The position numbers and the translations under genes are program-made. Source: Sphingomonas hankyongi (GTDB lineage Bacteria; Pseudomonadota; Alphaproteobacteria; Sphingomonadales; Sphingomonadaceae). From it: a DNA stretch of 64,000 bases. Positions 19,912 to 38,960 of this stretch are shown here, piece by piece. Each line of letters opens with the position of its first letter. Within the stretch, counting starts at the first letter, position 1. Below the pieces are notes generated by a model that saw nothing but the letters and a program-made list of their open reading frames with translations, was not told the origin of the DNA and did no database searches. The stretch is taken from positions 620,001-684,000 of the forward strand of contig NZ_JAMGBE010000001.1 in the NCBI RefSeq assembly GCF_023516575.1, given 5' to 3'.

Positions 19912-19987
19912 AGGAGTGTAGCTCAGTTGGTAGAGCATCGGTCTCCAAAACCGAGGGCCGGGGGTTCGAGTCCCTCCACTCCTGCCA
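19912..19987 (+). tRNA. tRNA-Trp (anticodon CCA)
   Basis: The 76-base gene folds as a cloverleaf. The acceptor stem is AGGAGTG/CACTCCT, the D arm GCTCAGTTGGTAGAGC, and the anticodon loop is CTCCAAA with CCA anticodon. The T arm contains GGTTCGAGTCC, and the encoded 3' end is GCCA. It lies just upstream of secE-nusG, a common arrangement for tRNA-Trp. Confidence 0.97.
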
Positions 19988-30190: not shown

Positions 30191-30916
30191 ATGATCATAG
30201 CGGTTTACAGCGCGAAAGGCGGCGTCGGGAAGACGACGCTTGCAGTGAACCTCGCCTGGGCGAGCGCGGCGCTGTCGAAGCGGCGGACATTGCTGTGGGA
30301 CCTCGATGCCCAGGGCGCGGCCAGCTACATCCTGGGCCAAGAACCCCTCAGCAAAGGCGCGCGATCGAGCATCACGCGCGACGGCGATGCCGCAAGCTTG
30401 ATCAAACCCTCGAACACGGCGGGCATCGACATCCTTCCGGCGGACGACAGCCTGCGCTCGCTCGACTATGCGTTTCACGACCTCGGAAAGCGCAAGCGCC
30501 TCGCGAAGGTCGCCGCCGAGCTCGAGCGCGACTACGACCGGATCGTAATCGACTGCCCCCCGGGCCTGACCGATACGTCCGACCAGATCCTGCGCGCATC
30601 CGACCTGGTGGTTGTCCCCGTCATTCCTTCCGCGCTGTCGCAGCGCTCGCTCGACGTCATCAAGGCCCATGTGGCGCGCAAGAAAGGGCCCAAGGTGACG
30701 CTCGCCCCGGTATTCTCGATGGTCGATCGCCGGCGCGCGATCCACCAGGCGGAGCTAGAGAAACACAAAGGCTGGCCGACCATTCCGATGGCCAGCGCAT
30801 ACGAGCGGATGAGCGACCTGCGCGCGCCGATCGGCGAGCTGCTGCCTCGATCGGCCGCGCCGGTCGAAGCCGTTGCGCAGCTTTGGCGAAGGATCGAAAG
30901 GGCGCTGAACAAATGA
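30191..30916 (+). CDS. Orphan ParA-family ATPase
   Basis: The 241-residue protein has the deviant Walker A motif YSAKGGVGKTTLAVNLA at the N-terminus, LLWDLDAQGAASYIL (Walker A') and VIDCPPGLTDTSDQILRASD (Walker B). No ParB, parS or partner protein is adjacent. Orphan ParA proteins position chromosomes, chemoreceptors, carboxysomes or other cargo. It is one of two ParA/MinD-type ATPases in the window (the other is MipZ). Its TGA overlaps the ATG of the GFA gene, so the two are coupled. Both sit between ruvA and ruvB. Confidence 0.88.
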   Translation: MIIAVYSAKGGVGKTTLAVNLAWASAALSKRRTLLWDLDAQGAASYILGQEPLSKGARSSITRDGDAASLIKPSNTAGIDILPADDSLRSLDYAFHDLGKRKRLAKVAAELERDYDRIVIDCPPGLTDTSDQILRASDLVVVPVIPSALSQRSLDVIKAHVARKKGPKVTLAPVFSMVDRRRAIHQAELEKHKGWPTIPMASAYERMSDLRAPIGELLPRSAAPVEAVAQLWRRIERALNK

Positions 30917-32496: not shown

Positions 32497-33540
32497 ATGG
32501 CAACCGACCCCGCCCGCATCACCACGCCCGAGCGCACCAGCGAGGATGCGGACGCGGCGCTTCGCCCAAAGAGCCTCGACGAGTTCATCGGCCAGCAGGC
32601 CGCGCGCGAGAATCTGCGCGTGTTCGTCCATGCCGCAAAGGGACGGGGCGAGGCGCTCGACCATGTGCTGCTCCACGGCCCTCCCGGGCTCGGCAAGACC
32701 ACGCTCGCCGGGATCCTCGCGCGGGAAATGGGGGTGGGCTTCCGGGCCACGTCCGGTCCGGTGATCGCCAAGTCCGGCGACCTTGCGGCGCTGCTGACCA
32801 ACCTCGAGGACGGCGACGTCCTCTTCATCGACGAGATCCACCGGCTCAATCCGGCGGTCGAGGAGGTGCTCTACCCGGCCATGGAGGACCGGGCTTTGGA
32901 CCTGATGATCGGCGAAGGACCGTCAGCGCGCTCGGTTCGGATTGAGCTGCCGCGCTTCACGCTCATCGGCGCAACGACGCGGCAGGGTCTGCTGACGACA
33001 CCGCTTAGGGATCGCTTCGGCATTCCGGTGAGGCTGAACTTCTACACTGTCGAAGAGCTGGAGCAGGTCATCCGCCGTGCGGCGCGCCTTCTCGGCGCCG
33101 AGCTCAACGACGACGGCGCGCGGGAGATTGCGCGCAGGTCGCGCGGGACCCCGCGAATCGCCGGGCGGCTGCTCAGGCGCGTGCGGGATTTCGCACATGC
33201 CTCCGGCAGCGACACGATCACCGCCGATGCGGCAGACCGCGCCTTGTCGCGGCTCGAAATCGATGCGCTCGGCCTGGATGCCATGGACCGGCGCTATCTG
33301 ACGATGATCGCCGATCTCTACGGGGGCGGGCCGGTCGGTGTGGAGACGCTTGCCGCCGGACTGTCGGAGCCGCGCGACACGATCGAGGACGTGATCGAGC
33401 CTTTCCTCATTCAGCTGGGCCTCATCGCTCGCACTGCACGAGGGCGCTGCCTGAACGGCCGCGGCTATGCCCATCTTGGGCTGCCGGTACCGAAAGGAGG
33501 CCAGGCGGGATTGTTCGACCAGGGAGCGTCACCCAAGTAA
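32497..33540 (+). CDS. ruvB: Holliday junction branch migration ATPase RuvB
   Basis: The 347-residue AAA+ motor has [17 protein letters not shown], Walker [17 protein letters not shown], Walker [13 protein letters not shown], sensor [21 protein letters not shown], and the C-terminal winged helix ([20 protein letters not shown]). It starts at ATG 32497 behind GGGAG. It is separated from ruvA by about 2.4 kb. The next gene starts inside its stop codon (TAATG). Confidence 0.97.
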
Positions 33541-34682
33541 TGCGTGCCTTCATTCTTGCCGCTGCCGCGCTTGCCGCAGCGGCCCCCGCCGGCGCCCAGA
33601 CGCGAGCGGCCGCTGCAGCCCCAGATTATGCAAAAGACTCCGGCTGGCTCTGCTTGCCCGGCCGGGCCGACATCTGCTCCACGCCGCTGCCGACCACGGC
33701 GCTCAATTCGAACGGTTATGGCTCCGTGGGTCGTAGCACCGTCGCCAATAATCCCGCGATCGACTGCTTCTACGTCTATCCGACGGTTTCCAGCGATGCG
33801 GGGCTAAACAGCGACATGAATCCGGGTCGCGAGGAAAAGCTGGCCACCGAGAGCCAGTTCGCTCGCTTTGCCGGCGTCTGCCGTCCCTTCGCTCCCGTCT
33901 ATCGCCAGATGACCCTCGCGTCGGTCGCGGCTTATGCGGCCGGCGTCGACATCACGCAGGCGGCGGTTCTGGCTTATGGCGACGTGGTCGCGGCCTGGCG
34001 CAATTACATCGCCACCAGGAACGCAGGCCGTCCGTTCGTGCTGATCGGGCACAGCCAGGGCAGCCTGATGATCCAGCAGCTGATCGCGCGCGAGATCGAA
34101 ACCAAGCCCGACGTCGCGCGGCGGATGAAGCTGGCCATCATACCGGGTTACAACGTGCTGGTCCCGCAGGGGCGCCTGGTCGGCGGAACGTTCAAGAAAA
34201 CGCCCTTGTGCAACGGCCCAAGCCAGACCGGCTGCGTCATCACCTGGACGAGCTTTCGCGAGAAGAACGCGCCGCCCCCCGGAGCCATCTTCGGCTATGC
34301 CGACAAACCGGGGATGACGGTCGCTTGCGTCAATCCGGCTCGGCCCGGCTCGCGTAACTGGGAGAGCCTCGACAGCTATTTCTTCACCCGCTCGACCTTG
34401 CCGGTCCCCGGCGGTCCGGTGCAATGGTCGACCGACGGCGCGCCGCCGACCCCCTATGTCCGGACGGAAGGTCTGGTCTCGGCACGGTGCGTCAACGAGG
34501 GGCAGCGAGGCTATCTGTCGGTGCGCACCAACGCGGATCCGAAGGACAAGAGGACCGACCGCATCGGCGGCGAAGTGGCGGTGCTTGGCATGTTCCTGCC
34601 CGGCTGGGGAATGCATCTCGCCGATATGGCCATCGCCGAGGGCGACCTGATGAGACAGGTCGGAGACCGCGCGGGCAAATGA
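33540..34682 (+). CDS. Secreted DUF3089 alpha/beta-hydrolase-like protein
   Basis: The 380-residue protein has a signal peptide ([19 protein letters not shown]), then WLCLPGRADICSTPLP, DCFYVYPTVSSD and the lipase-like nucleophile elbow FVLIGHSQGSLMIQQLI. A C-terminal His is in GWGMHLADM. These are marks of DUF3089, a lipase-like family of unknown substrate. The ATG overlaps the ruvB stop by one base, and its TGA overlaps the ybgC ATG, so it is coupled to both. Confidence 0.85.
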   Translation: MRAFILAAAALAAAAPAGAQTRAAAAAPDYAKDSGWLCLPGRADICSTPLPTTALNSNGYGSVGRSTVANNPAIDCFYVYPTVSSDAGLNSDMNPGREEKLATESQFARFAGVCRPFAPVYRQMTLASVAAYAAGVDITQAAVLAYGDVVAAWRNYIATRNAGRPFVLIGHSQGSLMIQQLIAREIETKPDVARRMKLAIIPGYNVLVPQGRLVGGTFKKTPLCNGPSQTGCVITWTSFREKNAPPPGAIFGYADKPGMTVACVNPARPGSRNWESLDSYFFTRSTLPVPGGPVQWSTDGAPPTPYVRTEGLVSARCVNEGQRGYLSVRTNADPKDKRTDRIGGEVAVLGMFLPGWGMHLADMAIAEGDLMRQVGDRAGK

Positions 34683-35128
34683 CAGATTTCGACACCCCCT
34701 ATCGCGGCGGCTTCATCGGGCCGGAGCATCACTTCGCCCTCACCGTCTATTTCGAGGATACGGACACCGCAGGCGTCGTCTATTACGCCAATTATCTGAA
34801 GTTCATGGAGCGGGCGCGCTCGGACATGCTGCGTGCGGTTGGGGTCGACCAGCGCGATGTGCTCGATGGCGGCGGCGGCGCTTATTATGTCGCGGAGGCG
34901 AACATCAGATATCTCAGGCCCGCGCGGCTTGGCGATGACCTGGTCGTCGTCAGCACCGTCGACATTGTCCGAGCTGCATCGGTCCAGATTCATCAGCGAG
35001 TCATCCGGGGCAGTGAACTGTTGACCGATGGACGGGTGACCGCGGCGTTCCTGGATGCGAACGGGCGTCCGCAGCGGCAACCCAAGGAATGGGTCGAGAA
35101 GTTCAACGGGATCATCAACCGGAAGTGA
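34679..35128 (+). CDS. ybgC: Tol-Pal-associated acyl-CoA thioesterase YbgC
   Basis: The 149-residue hot-dog thioesterase has the catalytic motif VYFEDTDTAGVVYYANYLKF and then ERARSDMLRAVGVDQ. It normally heads the tol-pal operon. It starts at ATG 34679, overlapping the previous stop (ATGA). Its own stop overlaps the GTG start of tolB (GTGA), so tolQ, tolR and tolA are not between them. Confidence 0.95.
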   Translation: MTDFDTPYRGGFIGPEHHFALTVYFEDTDTAGVVYYANYLKFMERARSDMLRAVGVDQRDVLDGGGGAYYVAEANIRYLRPARLGDDLVVVSTVDIVRAASVQIHQRVIRGSELLTDGRVTAAFLDANGRPQRQPKEWVEKFNGIINRK

Positions 35129-36414
35129 AAAAGCTATTGATATCGATGCTGGCGGCGGCCGTCGCCGTGCCAGCAGCCGCGCAGCAGGCCGTGCCCGTGA
35201 TTGCGGTGCCGCCCTTGTCCTCGCCCGCGGACAAGCAGACTAGCGCCGGAAGCACGCTGGCGATCGCCTGGCAGGCGACAGAATTGATCGCACAGGATCT
35301 CCGCACGACCAGCGAAGTGCTTGCGCTGCCGCCGAACCAGCAGAAAGACTTCTATTCCTATCCGGAAGTCACGGCGCCGACTTTTTCTCGATGGCGAGCA
35401 AAAGGCGCAAAGGCGCTGCTCACTGGCTTCGTCCAGGCCAGGCCAGACGGCCGTCTCGCCGTCGGCTGCTATGTCTACGATACCGAAAAAGGCACCGAAC
35501 TGGGCCGCACGGGCTTCGTCGTCGCTCCAGACGACTGGCGGCGCGCAGCGCATAAATGCTCGGGCCTTGCTTATAAGAGCCTGACGGGCGCGCCGGGCAT
35601 CTTCGACACGCGCATCGCCTATGTCGCAAGGACCGGTTTCGGCACGGCGCAATCGAGCCGCATCGCGACGATGGACAGCGATGGACTCAACCACAGCTAT
35701 GTAACGCCTCCGGACGGGCTGGTGACGACGCCCAGATTGTCGCCGGACGGGGAGCGCCTCGCCTATGTGAGCTTCAGTGGCGGACAACCGCACATCCTGG
35801 TGCGCGACCTGGATTCGAACGAGGAACGCCCGCTCGCCGGGACCAGCTTGCCGAGCTTCTCGCCTCGCTTTTCGCCGGACGGCAACCGCGTCGTCTTCTC
35901 GATGACCAACGGCGGGAACACAGACATTTACGTGACAGGCGCAACCGGGGGTTATCCGCAGCGCCTCACGACCTCACCGGGAATCGACACGAGCCCGAGC
36001 TTCTCGCCCGACGGGCGCAGCATCCTTTTCGAAAGCGATCGCTCTGGAACTCAGCAGCTGTACGTCATGAGCGCCGACGGATCGAACCAGCGCAGGATCA
36101 GCTTCGGCGGGGGCTGGTATGCCGCCCCCGAGTGGAGCCCGGATGGAGAGATGATCGCATTTACGAGCCGCGGAAACGACGGATTGCGAGTAGGCATCAT
36201 GAAGGCAGACGGGACCGATGCCCGTGTGCTTACCAGCGGGCCACGCGACGAGGGCGCCAATTGGGCCGCGAGCAGCCGCGAACTCATTTTCCAGCGCGTT
36301 GATGTTGCGGGCCGGCCCGGAATTTATCGCGTGACCTTGTCAGGAGGGGAGCCGCGCAAAGTGACTGTCCCGCAGGACGCCGCGGACCCCGACTGGTCGG
36401 GGGCGCGCGAATGA
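35125..36414 (+). CDS. tolB: TolB-family periplasmic beta-propeller protein
   Basis: The 429-residue protein has a signal peptide (KKLLISMLAAAVAVPAAA), an N-terminal alpha/beta domain (about residues 20-160) and a beta-propeller. The propeller repeats are LSPDGERLAYVSF, FSPDGNRVVFSMTNGG, FSPDGRSILFESDRSG and WSPDGEMIAFTSRG. TolB links Pal to the inner-membrane TolQRA complex. The N-terminal domain (VPVIAVPPLSSPADKQTSAG) looks diverged from typical TolB, and tolQRA are missing upstream. It could therefore be a paralogue rather than the main TolB. It starts at GTG 35125 inside the ybgC stop, and its stop overlaps the Pal-like ATG. Confidence 0.85.
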   Translation: MKKLLISMLAAAVAVPAAAQQAVPVIAVPPLSSPADKQTSAGSTLAIAWQATELIAQDLRTTSEVLALPPNQQKDFYSYPEVTAPTFSRWRAKGAKALLTGFVQARPDGRLAVGCYVYDTEKGTELGRTGFVVAPDDWRRAAHKCSGLAYKSLTGAPGIFDTRIAYVARTGFGTAQSSRIATMDSDGLNHSYVTPPDGLVTTPRLSPDGERLAYVSFSGGQPHILVRDLDSNEERPLAGTSLPSFSPRFSPDGNRVVFSMTNGGNTDIYVTGATGGYPQRLTTSPGIDTSPSFSPDGRSILFESDRSGTQQLYVMSADGSNQRRISFGGGWYAAPEWSPDGEMIAFTSRGNDGLRVGIMKADGTDARVLTSGPRDEGANWAASSRELIFQRVDVAGRPGIYRVTLSGGEPRKVTVPQDAADPDWSGARE

Positions 36415-36884
36415 CACGGCCGCCAGTCTTTCTGGCCGCGGTTGGCCTCCTCATCGGCGCCGAGGCGAGCGCCCAGCTTCGAGTGCCGCCTGTGGTACAG
36501 CGGGTGCTGCCCGGACGGCAGCCGGCGCAACCCGTGCTGGTCGGCATCGATGCTCTTCGTGCGGATTTCCTTGCGCGCACCGGGGGCAACACGGTCTATT
36601 TCGCTGGGGACAGCTTCGGCCTCGTTCCCGCCGCCAAGACCAATCTCACGGCGCAGGCGCAGTGGCTAAGGCAGCATCCCGAGGTGGTGGTCAGCATCGA
36701 GGGGCATGCGAGCCCGCTCGACACGCGCGACCATGCGCTGGCCCTCGGAGCTCGGCGGGCGCAGGAGGTCCGCGATTTCCTCGTTCTGATGGGCGTTCCC
36801 GCCGCCCAGCTGACAGCCGTCAGCCTGGGCAAGGAGCGGCCGGTCGGCGCCAACTCCCGCGTGGAGACGATACTGGTTCGTTAA
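36411..36884 (+). CDS. Pal/OmpA-like periplasmic protein with degenerate peptidoglycan site
   Basis: The 157-residue protein occupies the normal pal position after tolB. It has an OmpA-C-like domain: VYFAGDSFGLVPAAKTNL, VVVSIEGHASPLDTRDHALA, LGARRAQEVRDFLVLMGVP and SLGKERPVGANSRVETILV. Canonical Pal has GHTDxxGTxxYN and a longer loop ending NRRV; here TD becomes AS, YN becomes HA, the loop is about ten residues shorter and the ending is NSRV. The signal (PPVFLAAVGLLIGAEASA) has no lipobox Cys, so it should be soluble in the periplasm, not an outer-membrane lipoprotein. Its stop interlocks with that of the convergent gene (TTAA). Confidence 0.8.
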   Translation: MTRPPVFLAAVGLLIGAEASAQLRVPPVVQRVLPGRQPAQPVLVGIDALRADFLARTGGNTVYFAGDSFGLVPAAKTNLTAQAQWLRQHPEVVVSIEGHASPLDTRDHALALGARRAQEVRDFLVLMGVPAAQLTAVSLGKERPVGANSRVETILVR

Positions 36885-37186
36885 GCGGCGCGGCGCTGAT
36901 AGCCGCAAGCGCTAAGCCAGGCCCGCGCCTGACGTTGTGCTTCGGCGATCTCTCGAGCGGTCATCTCGGCTGCGATCTCGGCACGGCATTGCTGCCCGCG
37001 AGTGCAACCCGACAGCGCCGCCAGATTGAACCATTTGTGCGCTTCGATCAGGTCGACCGCAGCTCCGCCGCGACCCGTGGAATAGGTCACGCCAAGCTCG
37101 AACAATGCGTCGACGTCGCCGTTTTCCGCGTCTGCAAGACGGCTGCGGATCAGGAACTCCGCGCTCTTCTGGCTGATGGCACCCAT
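36881..37186 (-). CDS. Sel1-like repeat protein (short)
   Basis: The 101-residue protein contains one or two Sel1/TPR-like helix pairs (DAENGDVDALFELGVTYSTG, AHKWFNLAALSG). The C-terminal helix is rich in Ala, Glu and Arg. There is no signal peptide. Sel1 repeats mediate protein contacts. Upstream, about 80 bases separate it from panC on the same strand. Its stop overlaps the Pal-like stop. Confidence 0.75.
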   Translation of the reverse strand: MGAISQKSAEFLIRSRLADAENGDVDALFELGVTYSTGRGGAAVDLIEAHKWFNLAALSGCTRGQQCRAEIAAEMTAREIAEAQRQARAWLSACGYQRRAA

Positions 37187-38168: not shown

Positions 38169-38960
38169 ATGAGCCAACCGCATTTCATCGTCTTCGCCAA
38201 TGAAAAGGGCGGAACCGGCAAGTCGACCACGGCAGTCCATACGGCCGTCGCGCTCGCGGCTTCCGGCCATCGGGTCGCGGCTCTGGACCTCGACAGCCGC
38301 CAGCGGACGATGACGCGCTATCTCGAAAACCGCGACGCCACGATGCGCCGGCTCGCGAAAGATCTGCCGCAGGCATCCTACGAGGTGCTCGAGGATCACA
38401 CCGAAGACGCGCTTGCAGCGGCGATCGACCGACTTTCGATGGAAGCGGACGTGCTGGTCGTCGACACGCCGGGCCGCGACGATGAGCTGGCACGTTCCGC
38501 GATCCTGCGCGCCGACACGCTCGTCACGCCAATGAACGACAGCTTCGTGGACCTCGACCTGATCGGCCAGGTGCATCCGGAAAATTACAAGATCACCAAG
38601 CCGAGCTTCTATGCCGAGCTGATCTGGAACAGCCGGACGGCGCGCGCCAAGCAGACCGGCAAGAGCGTCGACTGGGTCGTGCTTCGCAACCGCCTGCAGC
38701 ATATCGAGAGCCACAATTTGCGACGCGTCGGAGCCGCGCTCGACGAGCTGGCCCGCCGCGTGGGCTTTCGAGTCATTCCCGGCCTGGGCGAGCGCGTCAT
38801 CTACCGCGAGCTGTTCCCGAAAGGCCTGACCCTGCTCGACCTGCAGCAGCTGGGCGAAGTCGGCATTGCCCACATCACGGCCCGGCAGGAGCTGCGCGAG
38901 ATGATCGCCGGCCTCGGAATCCCCGGCCAGGAAGAGCAGAAGCTGGCCGCCGTCGGTTGA
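38169..38960 (+). CDS. mipZ: MipZ, division-plane-positioning ATPase
   Basis: The 263-residue ParA/MinD-type ATPase has the deviant Walker A FANEKGGTGKSTTAVHTA, then ALDLDSRQRTMTRYLENR and LVVDTPGRDDELARSAI. MipZ forms a bipolar gradient through ParB and blocks FtsZ assembly away from midcell in Alphaproteobacteria. Features such as LDLIGQVHPENYKI and VIYRELFPKGLTLLDL match MipZ rather than chromosomal ParA. It starts at ATG 38169, and pgmG follows. Confidence 0.92.
   Translation: MSQPHFIVFANEKGGTGKSTTAVHTAVALAASGHRVAALDLDSRQRTMTRYLENRDATMRRLAKDLPQASYEVLEDHTEDALAAAIDRLSMEADVLVVDTPGRDDELARSAILRADTLVTPMNDSFVDLDLIGQVHPENYKITKPSFYAELIWNSRTARAKQTGKSVDWVVLRNRLQHIESHNLRRVGAALDELARRVGFRVIPGLGERVIYRELFPKGLTLLDLQQLGEVGIAHITARQELREMIAGLGIPGQEEQKLAAVG

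Follow-up and report, generated by a model that had tools for sequence, protein, structure and literature searches.

A 64,000-nucleotide stretch of the Sphingomonas hankyongi genome (contig NZ_JAMGBE010000001.1, positions 620,001 to 684,000, forward strand; hereafter the window) carries a tol-pal locus in which ybgC runs directly into tolB and a pal-derived gene, and neither tolQ nor tolR was found anywhere in this genome. Judging from comparisons of sequences, we propose, with a probability of roughly 0.6, that TolB and Pal form here a soluble, motor-independent pair, left after the loss of the proton-driven TolQ-TolR-TolA motor and kept for cell-wall binding. Tol-Pal is described as a highly conserved, near-universal outer-membrane machine, and its complete loss has been linked to an intracellular way of life (PMC12204202; this and all other papers are cited from excerpts of their texts).

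Results

The ybgC thioesterase gene of the window (34679..35128, + strand) scores 134 bits with TIGR02799, just below the cut-off of 141.35, and 77.6 bits with TIGR00051, above the cut-off of 68.7. It is followed by tolB (35125..36414, + strand; TIGR02800, 349.2 bits for a cut-off of 343.15), which lacks the TolA-binding N-terminal segment in the alignment, and by the pal-derived gene (36411..36884, + strand). According to the PF00691 and TIGR02802 profiles and the alignment, the product of the latter has an OmpA-type domain and a type-I-like signal peptide without lipobox; it passes PF00691 with 60 bits (cut-off 27.2) and fails the Pal equivalog TIGR02802 with 79.2 bits (cut-off 125.35). Since ybgC and tolB share the GTGA at 35125..35128 (+ strand), nothing lies between them, at the very place where congeners have tolQ-tolR-tolA. 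A preliminary description of this DNA had pointed out the four-base overlap and the lack of room for tolQRA, and it was right on both counts. The ATGA at 36411-36414 is common to tolB and the pal-slot gene, and the DUF3089 gene and ybgC overlap in the same way. Indeed, ruvB, the DUF3089 gene, ybgC, tolB and the pal-slot gene make up one chain of overlapping genes, and the order ybgC-...-tolB-pal next to the ruv genes was found in the window.

The genome that holds the window (G000; 2.549 Mb, 8 contigs, 99.96% complete) was searched as a whole with family profiles. It contains one MotA/ExbB (PF01618) match and two ExbD (PF02472) matches, all in a single tonB-exbB-exbD-exbD operon, in which tonB was named from a reading of the frame; the same gene order is reported for the Ton operon of Sphingobium SYK-6 (PMC8599685). 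Because these sole motor-family matches belong to that operon, tolQ and tolR are absent from the genome. No trace of tolA was seen at the window locus, a genome-wide search for tolA not having been made, and no trace of tolQ, tolR or tolA was found at E 0.01 in the 27 motorless loci of the genus described below, the queries being the proteins of one congener. The genome encodes one full-length TolB and four OmpA-domain proteins, one of them beside tolB. The other three were considered as a second Pal and rejected, as none lies beside tolB; two of them look lipoprotein-like by eye. Of the two readings offered by the preliminary description, the one that placed the main tol-pal operon elsewhere, with a diverged TolB-OmpA pair in the window, is ruled out by these whole-genome searches, which were negative for tolQ, tolR and a second tolB-pal. 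The other reading, a remodelling of the system at this place, is supported. Separately, a frame at 1228-1812 of L008 in the same genome likely encodes a lipoprotein whose OmpA domain resembles that of Pal (GHTD, NRRV); it stands beside an apparent FecR-type gene and is a possible alternative wall tether.

TolB was compared between 51 motor-bearing rows (40 from the genus and 11 from other families of the order, including G040, whose tolQ is cut by a contig edge) and the motorless rows, which number 25 for the TolA box (leaving out G010 and G041, with broken frames) and 26 for all other counts (leaving out G010 and the partial G028). In the alignment columns of the TolA box, 51/51 motor-bearing proteins have 6-9 residues and 25/25 motorless ones, that of the window included, have 0-3. 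The TolA-binding N-terminal segment was not found in the window protein, and the unusual N-terminal domain remarked on in the preliminary description thus turned out to be the key point. In E. coli this stretch is the TolA site, and its removal causes a tol phenotype and abolishes the septal accumulation of Pal (PMC7391070). Moreover, His146, Asp150 and Thr165 of E. coli TolB have been implicated in force transfer, and replacing them by alanine gives tol phenotypes (PMC7066135). Residues were numbered as in E. coli by way of 4r40, a solved chain of TolB, with His146 as the anchor. Asp150 is present in 51/51 motor-bearing but only 9/26 motorless proteins, and Thr165 in 50/51 versus 19/26, whereas His146 shows the opposite trend (44/51 versus 26/26). 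Positions 246, 249 and 292 were also entered in the column tally. As a reference for the propeller pocket we used the nine E. coli TolB positions that contact colicin A (PMC2821528). Three of them are near-invariant in the relatives and kept in motorless TolB, namely Thr291 (25/26), Ser306 (26/26) and Asp307 (25/26), and this apparent retention of the pocket is consistent with Pal binding without being proof of it. The tolB gene is unbroken, in one frame, in 24 of the 27 motorless genomes and broken in G010, G041 and G058; as ruvB is also broken in G010 and G041, these two breaks have the pattern expected of sequencing error.

For Pal, 48 motor-bearing rows (41 from the genus and 7 outgroup rows, Pal having been recognised in 7/11 outgroup loci) were set against 25 motorless rows, from which G010 and G041 were again left out; G040 and, presumptively, G028 were counted as motor-bearing. 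The lipobox was scored by alignment column, since a simple lipobox pattern had missed several motor-bearing Pal. Its Cys is found in 48/48 motor-bearing and 0/25 motorless proteins, and the pal-slot protein of the window contains no Cys at all, in agreement with the preliminary description. Read by eye, the window protein has a signal-peptidase-I-type site between ASA and Q, and the columns aligned with its Ala21 and Gln22, the likely cleavage site, each hold the same residue as the window protein in 22/25 motorless Pal. The motorless proteins also bear a signature of their own, with Ala in 25/25 where the relatives have Asn in 48/48, and Asp in place of Glu in 24/25. The E-R-G that follows the ligand Asp in 48/48 motor-bearing Pal gives way to scattered residues. 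In the window protein itself, HA stands for YN, NSRV for NRR(A/V) and GHAS for GHAD, and the protein lacks the loop that precedes the last strand, as do about half of the motorless Pal. The missing YN pair, the shortened loop and the NSRV motif had been noticed beforehand and all hold in the alignment, the change from Asn to Ala being common to the whole group. The GHAS motif had been noticed too, as a substitute for GHTD; it is almost private to the window genome (Ser in 2/25, Asp in 20/25 motorless Pal). The OmpA-type domain of the window Pal stands behind a proline-rich linker. Roles in binding diaminopimelate have been stated for an Asp and an Arg of A. baumannii OmpA (PMC6572160), and we transferred these positions to Pal by our own reading of the alignment: Arg is found in 25/25 motorless Pal and the matching Asp is kept in 20/25. 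Altogether, the changes in the two proteins are coordinated, the TolA box and the lipobox Cys being lost in all motorless rows scored and Asp150 in most.

The distribution of these states was followed in 71 genomes of the genus, 53 of them of high quality, with thresholds of E 1e-50 or better for TolQ and E 1e-30 or better for TolB. TolQ was found in 39/71 genomes (37/53 of the high-quality ones) and TolB in 68/71. In 27 of the 32 TolQ-less genomes, the window included, ybgC adjoins tolB-pal at the same site. Upstream lie the DUF3089 gene, in all 27 of these motorless loci, and ruvB, in 26 of them; downstream, the Sel1 gene is present in 25. Where a flank is missing, the contig ends. By synteny, the site and its flanks are those of the full operon in motor-bearing congeners; in G041 broken frames at the ybgC-tolB junction blur the arrangement. 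Sequencing or assembly error in one genome is rejected as a cause, given the 26 other genomes with ybgC next to tolB at this site. The preliminary description had allowed that close relatives might encode a lipobox-bearing Pal here, the differences being sequence errors: motor-bearing congeners do have such a Pal, but the window's own clade does not, and the differences are not sequence errors. Two TolQ-less genomes are cut by contig edges, G040 having the tail of tolQ at the contig start and G028 starting inside tolB, with a canonical Pal. In G008 (96% complete) and G107 (86%), ybgC is directly followed by the Sel1 gene and no protein passes the TolB cut-off. No protein does so in G108 (79% complete) either, where the contig stops after ybgC; tolB and pal have probably been lost there as well. 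It may be added that ybgC is kept in G008 (L125), G107 (L126) and G108 (L127) though tolQ, tolB and, at the locus, pal are gone; because this total-loss lineage keeps the gene, its presence suggests that YbgC works independently of Tol-Pal. Motorless genomes are not reduced, high-quality ones measuring about 2.1-3.0 Mb versus about 2.1-3.2 Mb for motor-bearing ones, and several are single-contig genomes.

Trees indicate how often the motor was lost. The TolB gene tree gathers the 26 motorless rows into a single clade and gives one origin, with a support of 98 in the Shimodaira-Hasegawa-like approximate likelihood ratio test (SH-aLRT). A tree built from five flanking proteins (LG+G4 with a quick search; six short rows dropped, 5 of 12 outgroup rows used) placed 26 of the 27 motorless genomes in one clade (98), with G007 loosely placed, and a single clade of all 27 was not rejected by the approximately unbiased (AU) test (p 0.449). 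Adding the three total-loss genomes to this clade was rejected (AU p 6.8e-5). The tree places them beside G009, among motor-bearing genomes and not in the motorless clade, and total loss therefore looks like a separate event. The tree of RuvB alone is poorly resolved, less well than that of the five flanking proteins, and the motorless rows need two changes on it. The motorless state probably arose once, as far as these trees indicate.

We then considered selection on the remaining pair. The ratio of nonsynonymous to synonymous rates (dN/dS), obtained from the longest frames of hand-chosen close pairs, is 0.13-0.31 for motorless tolB (7/7 pairs) and 0.13-0.31 for motorless pal (6/7 pairs, one being saturated). 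These ranges overlap those of motor-bearing genomes, 0.05-0.30 for tolB and 0.06-0.40 for pal (8 pairs each). Relative to the flanking proteins, the divergence of TolB is 2.17 and that of the Pal core 2.39 over 300 motorless pairs, versus 0.97 and 0.82 over 630 motor-bearing pairs. Purifying selection on motorless tolB-pal, as read from these figures, is present but weaker or shifted. The word degenerate, used for this Pal in the preliminary description, is a misfit for the motorless group, whose Pal evolves faster than in the relatives and yet is held by purifying selection and marked by a conserved signature not shared with them.

The flanks of the locus are as follows. The upstream anchor is ruvB (32497..33540, + strand), with a start inferred from relatives. 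The DUF3089 gene (33540..34682, + strand; PF11288, 160.7 bits) is a flank shared with motor-bearing congeners by synteny; in those genus loci long enough to cover the place it lies between ruvB and ybgC, and it was recognised in 0/11 loci from other families of the order. Downstream, a small convergent Sel1-repeat-like gene (36881..37186, - strand) scores 26.1 bits with PF08238, below the cut-off of 30.7, and was assigned by synteny; where a genus locus extends far enough it follows pal, and it persists in G008 and G107. Two genes named by eye as ParA/MipZ-like ATPases, at 30191-30916 (+ strand) and about 38170-38960 (+ strand), flank the tol remnant at a distance of about 7 kb from each other. 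The single Rfam match of the window at the gathering threshold is a tRNA at 19912-19984 (+ strand).

Beyond the genus, the TolQ cut-off was passed by 36 of the 39 genomes sampled from the order. In a class sample of 241 genomes, each at least 95% complete, the TolQ threshold was passed by 225 and the TolB threshold by 228; nine genomes passed neither, so complete loss occurs elsewhere too, and seven, the window genome among them, passed TolB only. Of the other six, G176, G178 and G261 have a divergent tolQ beside tolB, and in G160 the contig stops a short way upstream, where one frame was read as tolA-like. The 0.9-Mb genomes G249 (L134) and G159 (L135), of another family, have a tolB with a TolA-box-like strand; about 4.7 kb of upstream and 2.5 kb of downstream sequence showed no further recognisable tol gene, which may point to a split or reduced system. 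No second case like that of the window was confirmed in this sample, in which the six other TolB-only genomes were looked at.

Discussion

We propose that Tol-Pal lost its TolQ-TolR-TolA motor in this clade and that the remaining TolB and Pal were rebuilt. TolB has lost the N-terminal strand gripped by TolA and, in most members of the clade, the Asp through which force is coupled to the release of Pal. With its lipid anchor gone, Pal would now be a soluble protein of the periplasm that still uses its OmpA-type domain to bind peptidoglycan, and the propeller pocket of TolB may still serve to cap or carry Pal. Such a pair would act on the cell wall passively, for example in septal peptidoglycan work, without the force-driven mobilisation of outer-membrane-anchored Pal. 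Because TolB could not be pulled off without TolA, the two proteins would have to work by a simple binding equilibrium; the mobilisation-and-capture role, as set out in the excerpt of PMC7066135, cannot operate as described in motorless cells. A broader statement, to which we give an even chance, is that in this clade, whose genomes are not reduced, a proton-driven tether of the outer membrane became a soluble TolB-Pal module for the cell wall that needs no energy input and has a new Pal ligand loop, the pair having a selectable function apart from the motor.

Several observations weigh against this interpretation. Most of the nine colicin-A-contact positions vary in motor-bearing and motorless TolB alike, and Gln at position 312 is found in 50/51 relatives versus 18/26 motorless proteins, which makes the evidence from the propeller pocket modest. 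The window Pal keeps the Arg of the diaminopimelate pair but has Ser in place of the Asp, and a fold model of it made without an alignment was too poor to use (mean predicted local distance difference test score, pLDDT, 46.4). In several of the dN/dS pairs the synonymous divergence (dS) is near 1, that is, near saturation. Moreover, measured against the flanking proteins, motorless TolB evolves 2.2 times and motorless Pal 2.9 times faster than in the motor-bearing relatives; as a separate lineage has also dropped tolB and pal, a slow decay is conceivable.

Such a decay, in which TolB and Pal would be remnants heading to total loss and kept meanwhile by their place in the ruv operon, draws on just these faster rates and on the lineage of G008, G107 and probably G108. 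We nevertheless think it unlikely, because the dN/dS values of the chosen pairs overlap those of motor-bearing genomes, Pal has acquired a group-wide signature, the few broken tolB frames include two that fit sequencing error, and the total-loss genomes do not group with the motorless clade. The pair might instead keep an outer-membrane-stabilising role, Pal being held at the membrane by another protein and not by a lipid. The OmpA-type domain kept behind the proline-rich linker would suit this arrangement, and E. coli TolB has been reported to contact OmpA and Lpp, though without validation in vitro (PMC7391070). A search confined to the locus showed no candidate anchor, and we regard the idea as distinctly improbable.

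A takeover of TolB by the TonB-ExbB-ExbD system, the sole motor of the family found in the genome, is more doubtful still. TolB has lost the very strand such a partner would grip, and the Ton motor is no novelty of the motorless clade, since most motor-bearing congeners also have a second, ExbB-like match besides TolQ. In Sphingobium, furthermore, exbB1 and exbD1-exbD2 did not restore the tolQ and tolR mutants (PMC8599685). That tolQRA exist in the strain and were missed by an assembly of 8 contigs is hardly credible, in view of its completeness, the contiguity of ybgC and tolB, the single-contig motorless relatives and the matched changes in TolB and Pal.

The soluble, motor-independent TolB-Pal pair proposed here gives the genus a particular interest. 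One genus presents three states at one locus, namely the full system, the motor lost with TolB-Pal remodelled, and everything lost, which amounts to a natural experiment. This contrast separates the TolB and Pal residues used for force transfer from those serving other functions, a split that is directly testable: positions fixed in 51/51 motor-bearing TolB and free in motorless ones are candidate motor-coupling residues. It also raises the question of how the outer membrane is constricted in cells that lack the motor. Caulobacter crescentus is an alphaproteobacterium. Tol-Pal is stated to be essential in that species (PMC7391070). In the Tol literature surveyed, partly in excerpts and with subscription journals mostly outside its coverage, no genome keeping TolB and Pal without TolQRA was found, which is no proof of novelty.

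Compared with a full Tol-Pal operon, the locus, the flanks, the order of the remaining genes, the TolB propeller and the OmpA-type domain of Pal are the same, whereas the window has no TolQRA, no TolA box, no lipobox and an altered Pal ligand loop. With other PF00691 proteins the window Pal shares the OmpA-type peptidoglycan-binding domain; it differs in being encoded together with TolB and, judged by position and sequence, in its descent from Pal. Split tol-pal loci have been reported, as in A. avenae, where tolQRA lies distant from tolB-pal-cpoB (PMC12204202). That arrangement resembles the one described here in having tolB-pal without adjoining tolQRA, but there tolQRA is found elsewhere in the genome, whereas here no tolQ or tolR was found in any part of it. 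The same source ties complete losses of tol-pal to intracellular lifestyles and genome reduction. The motor genes are lost in those cases as they are here; in the motorless clade, however, TolB and Pal have been kept and remodelled, in genomes that are no smaller.

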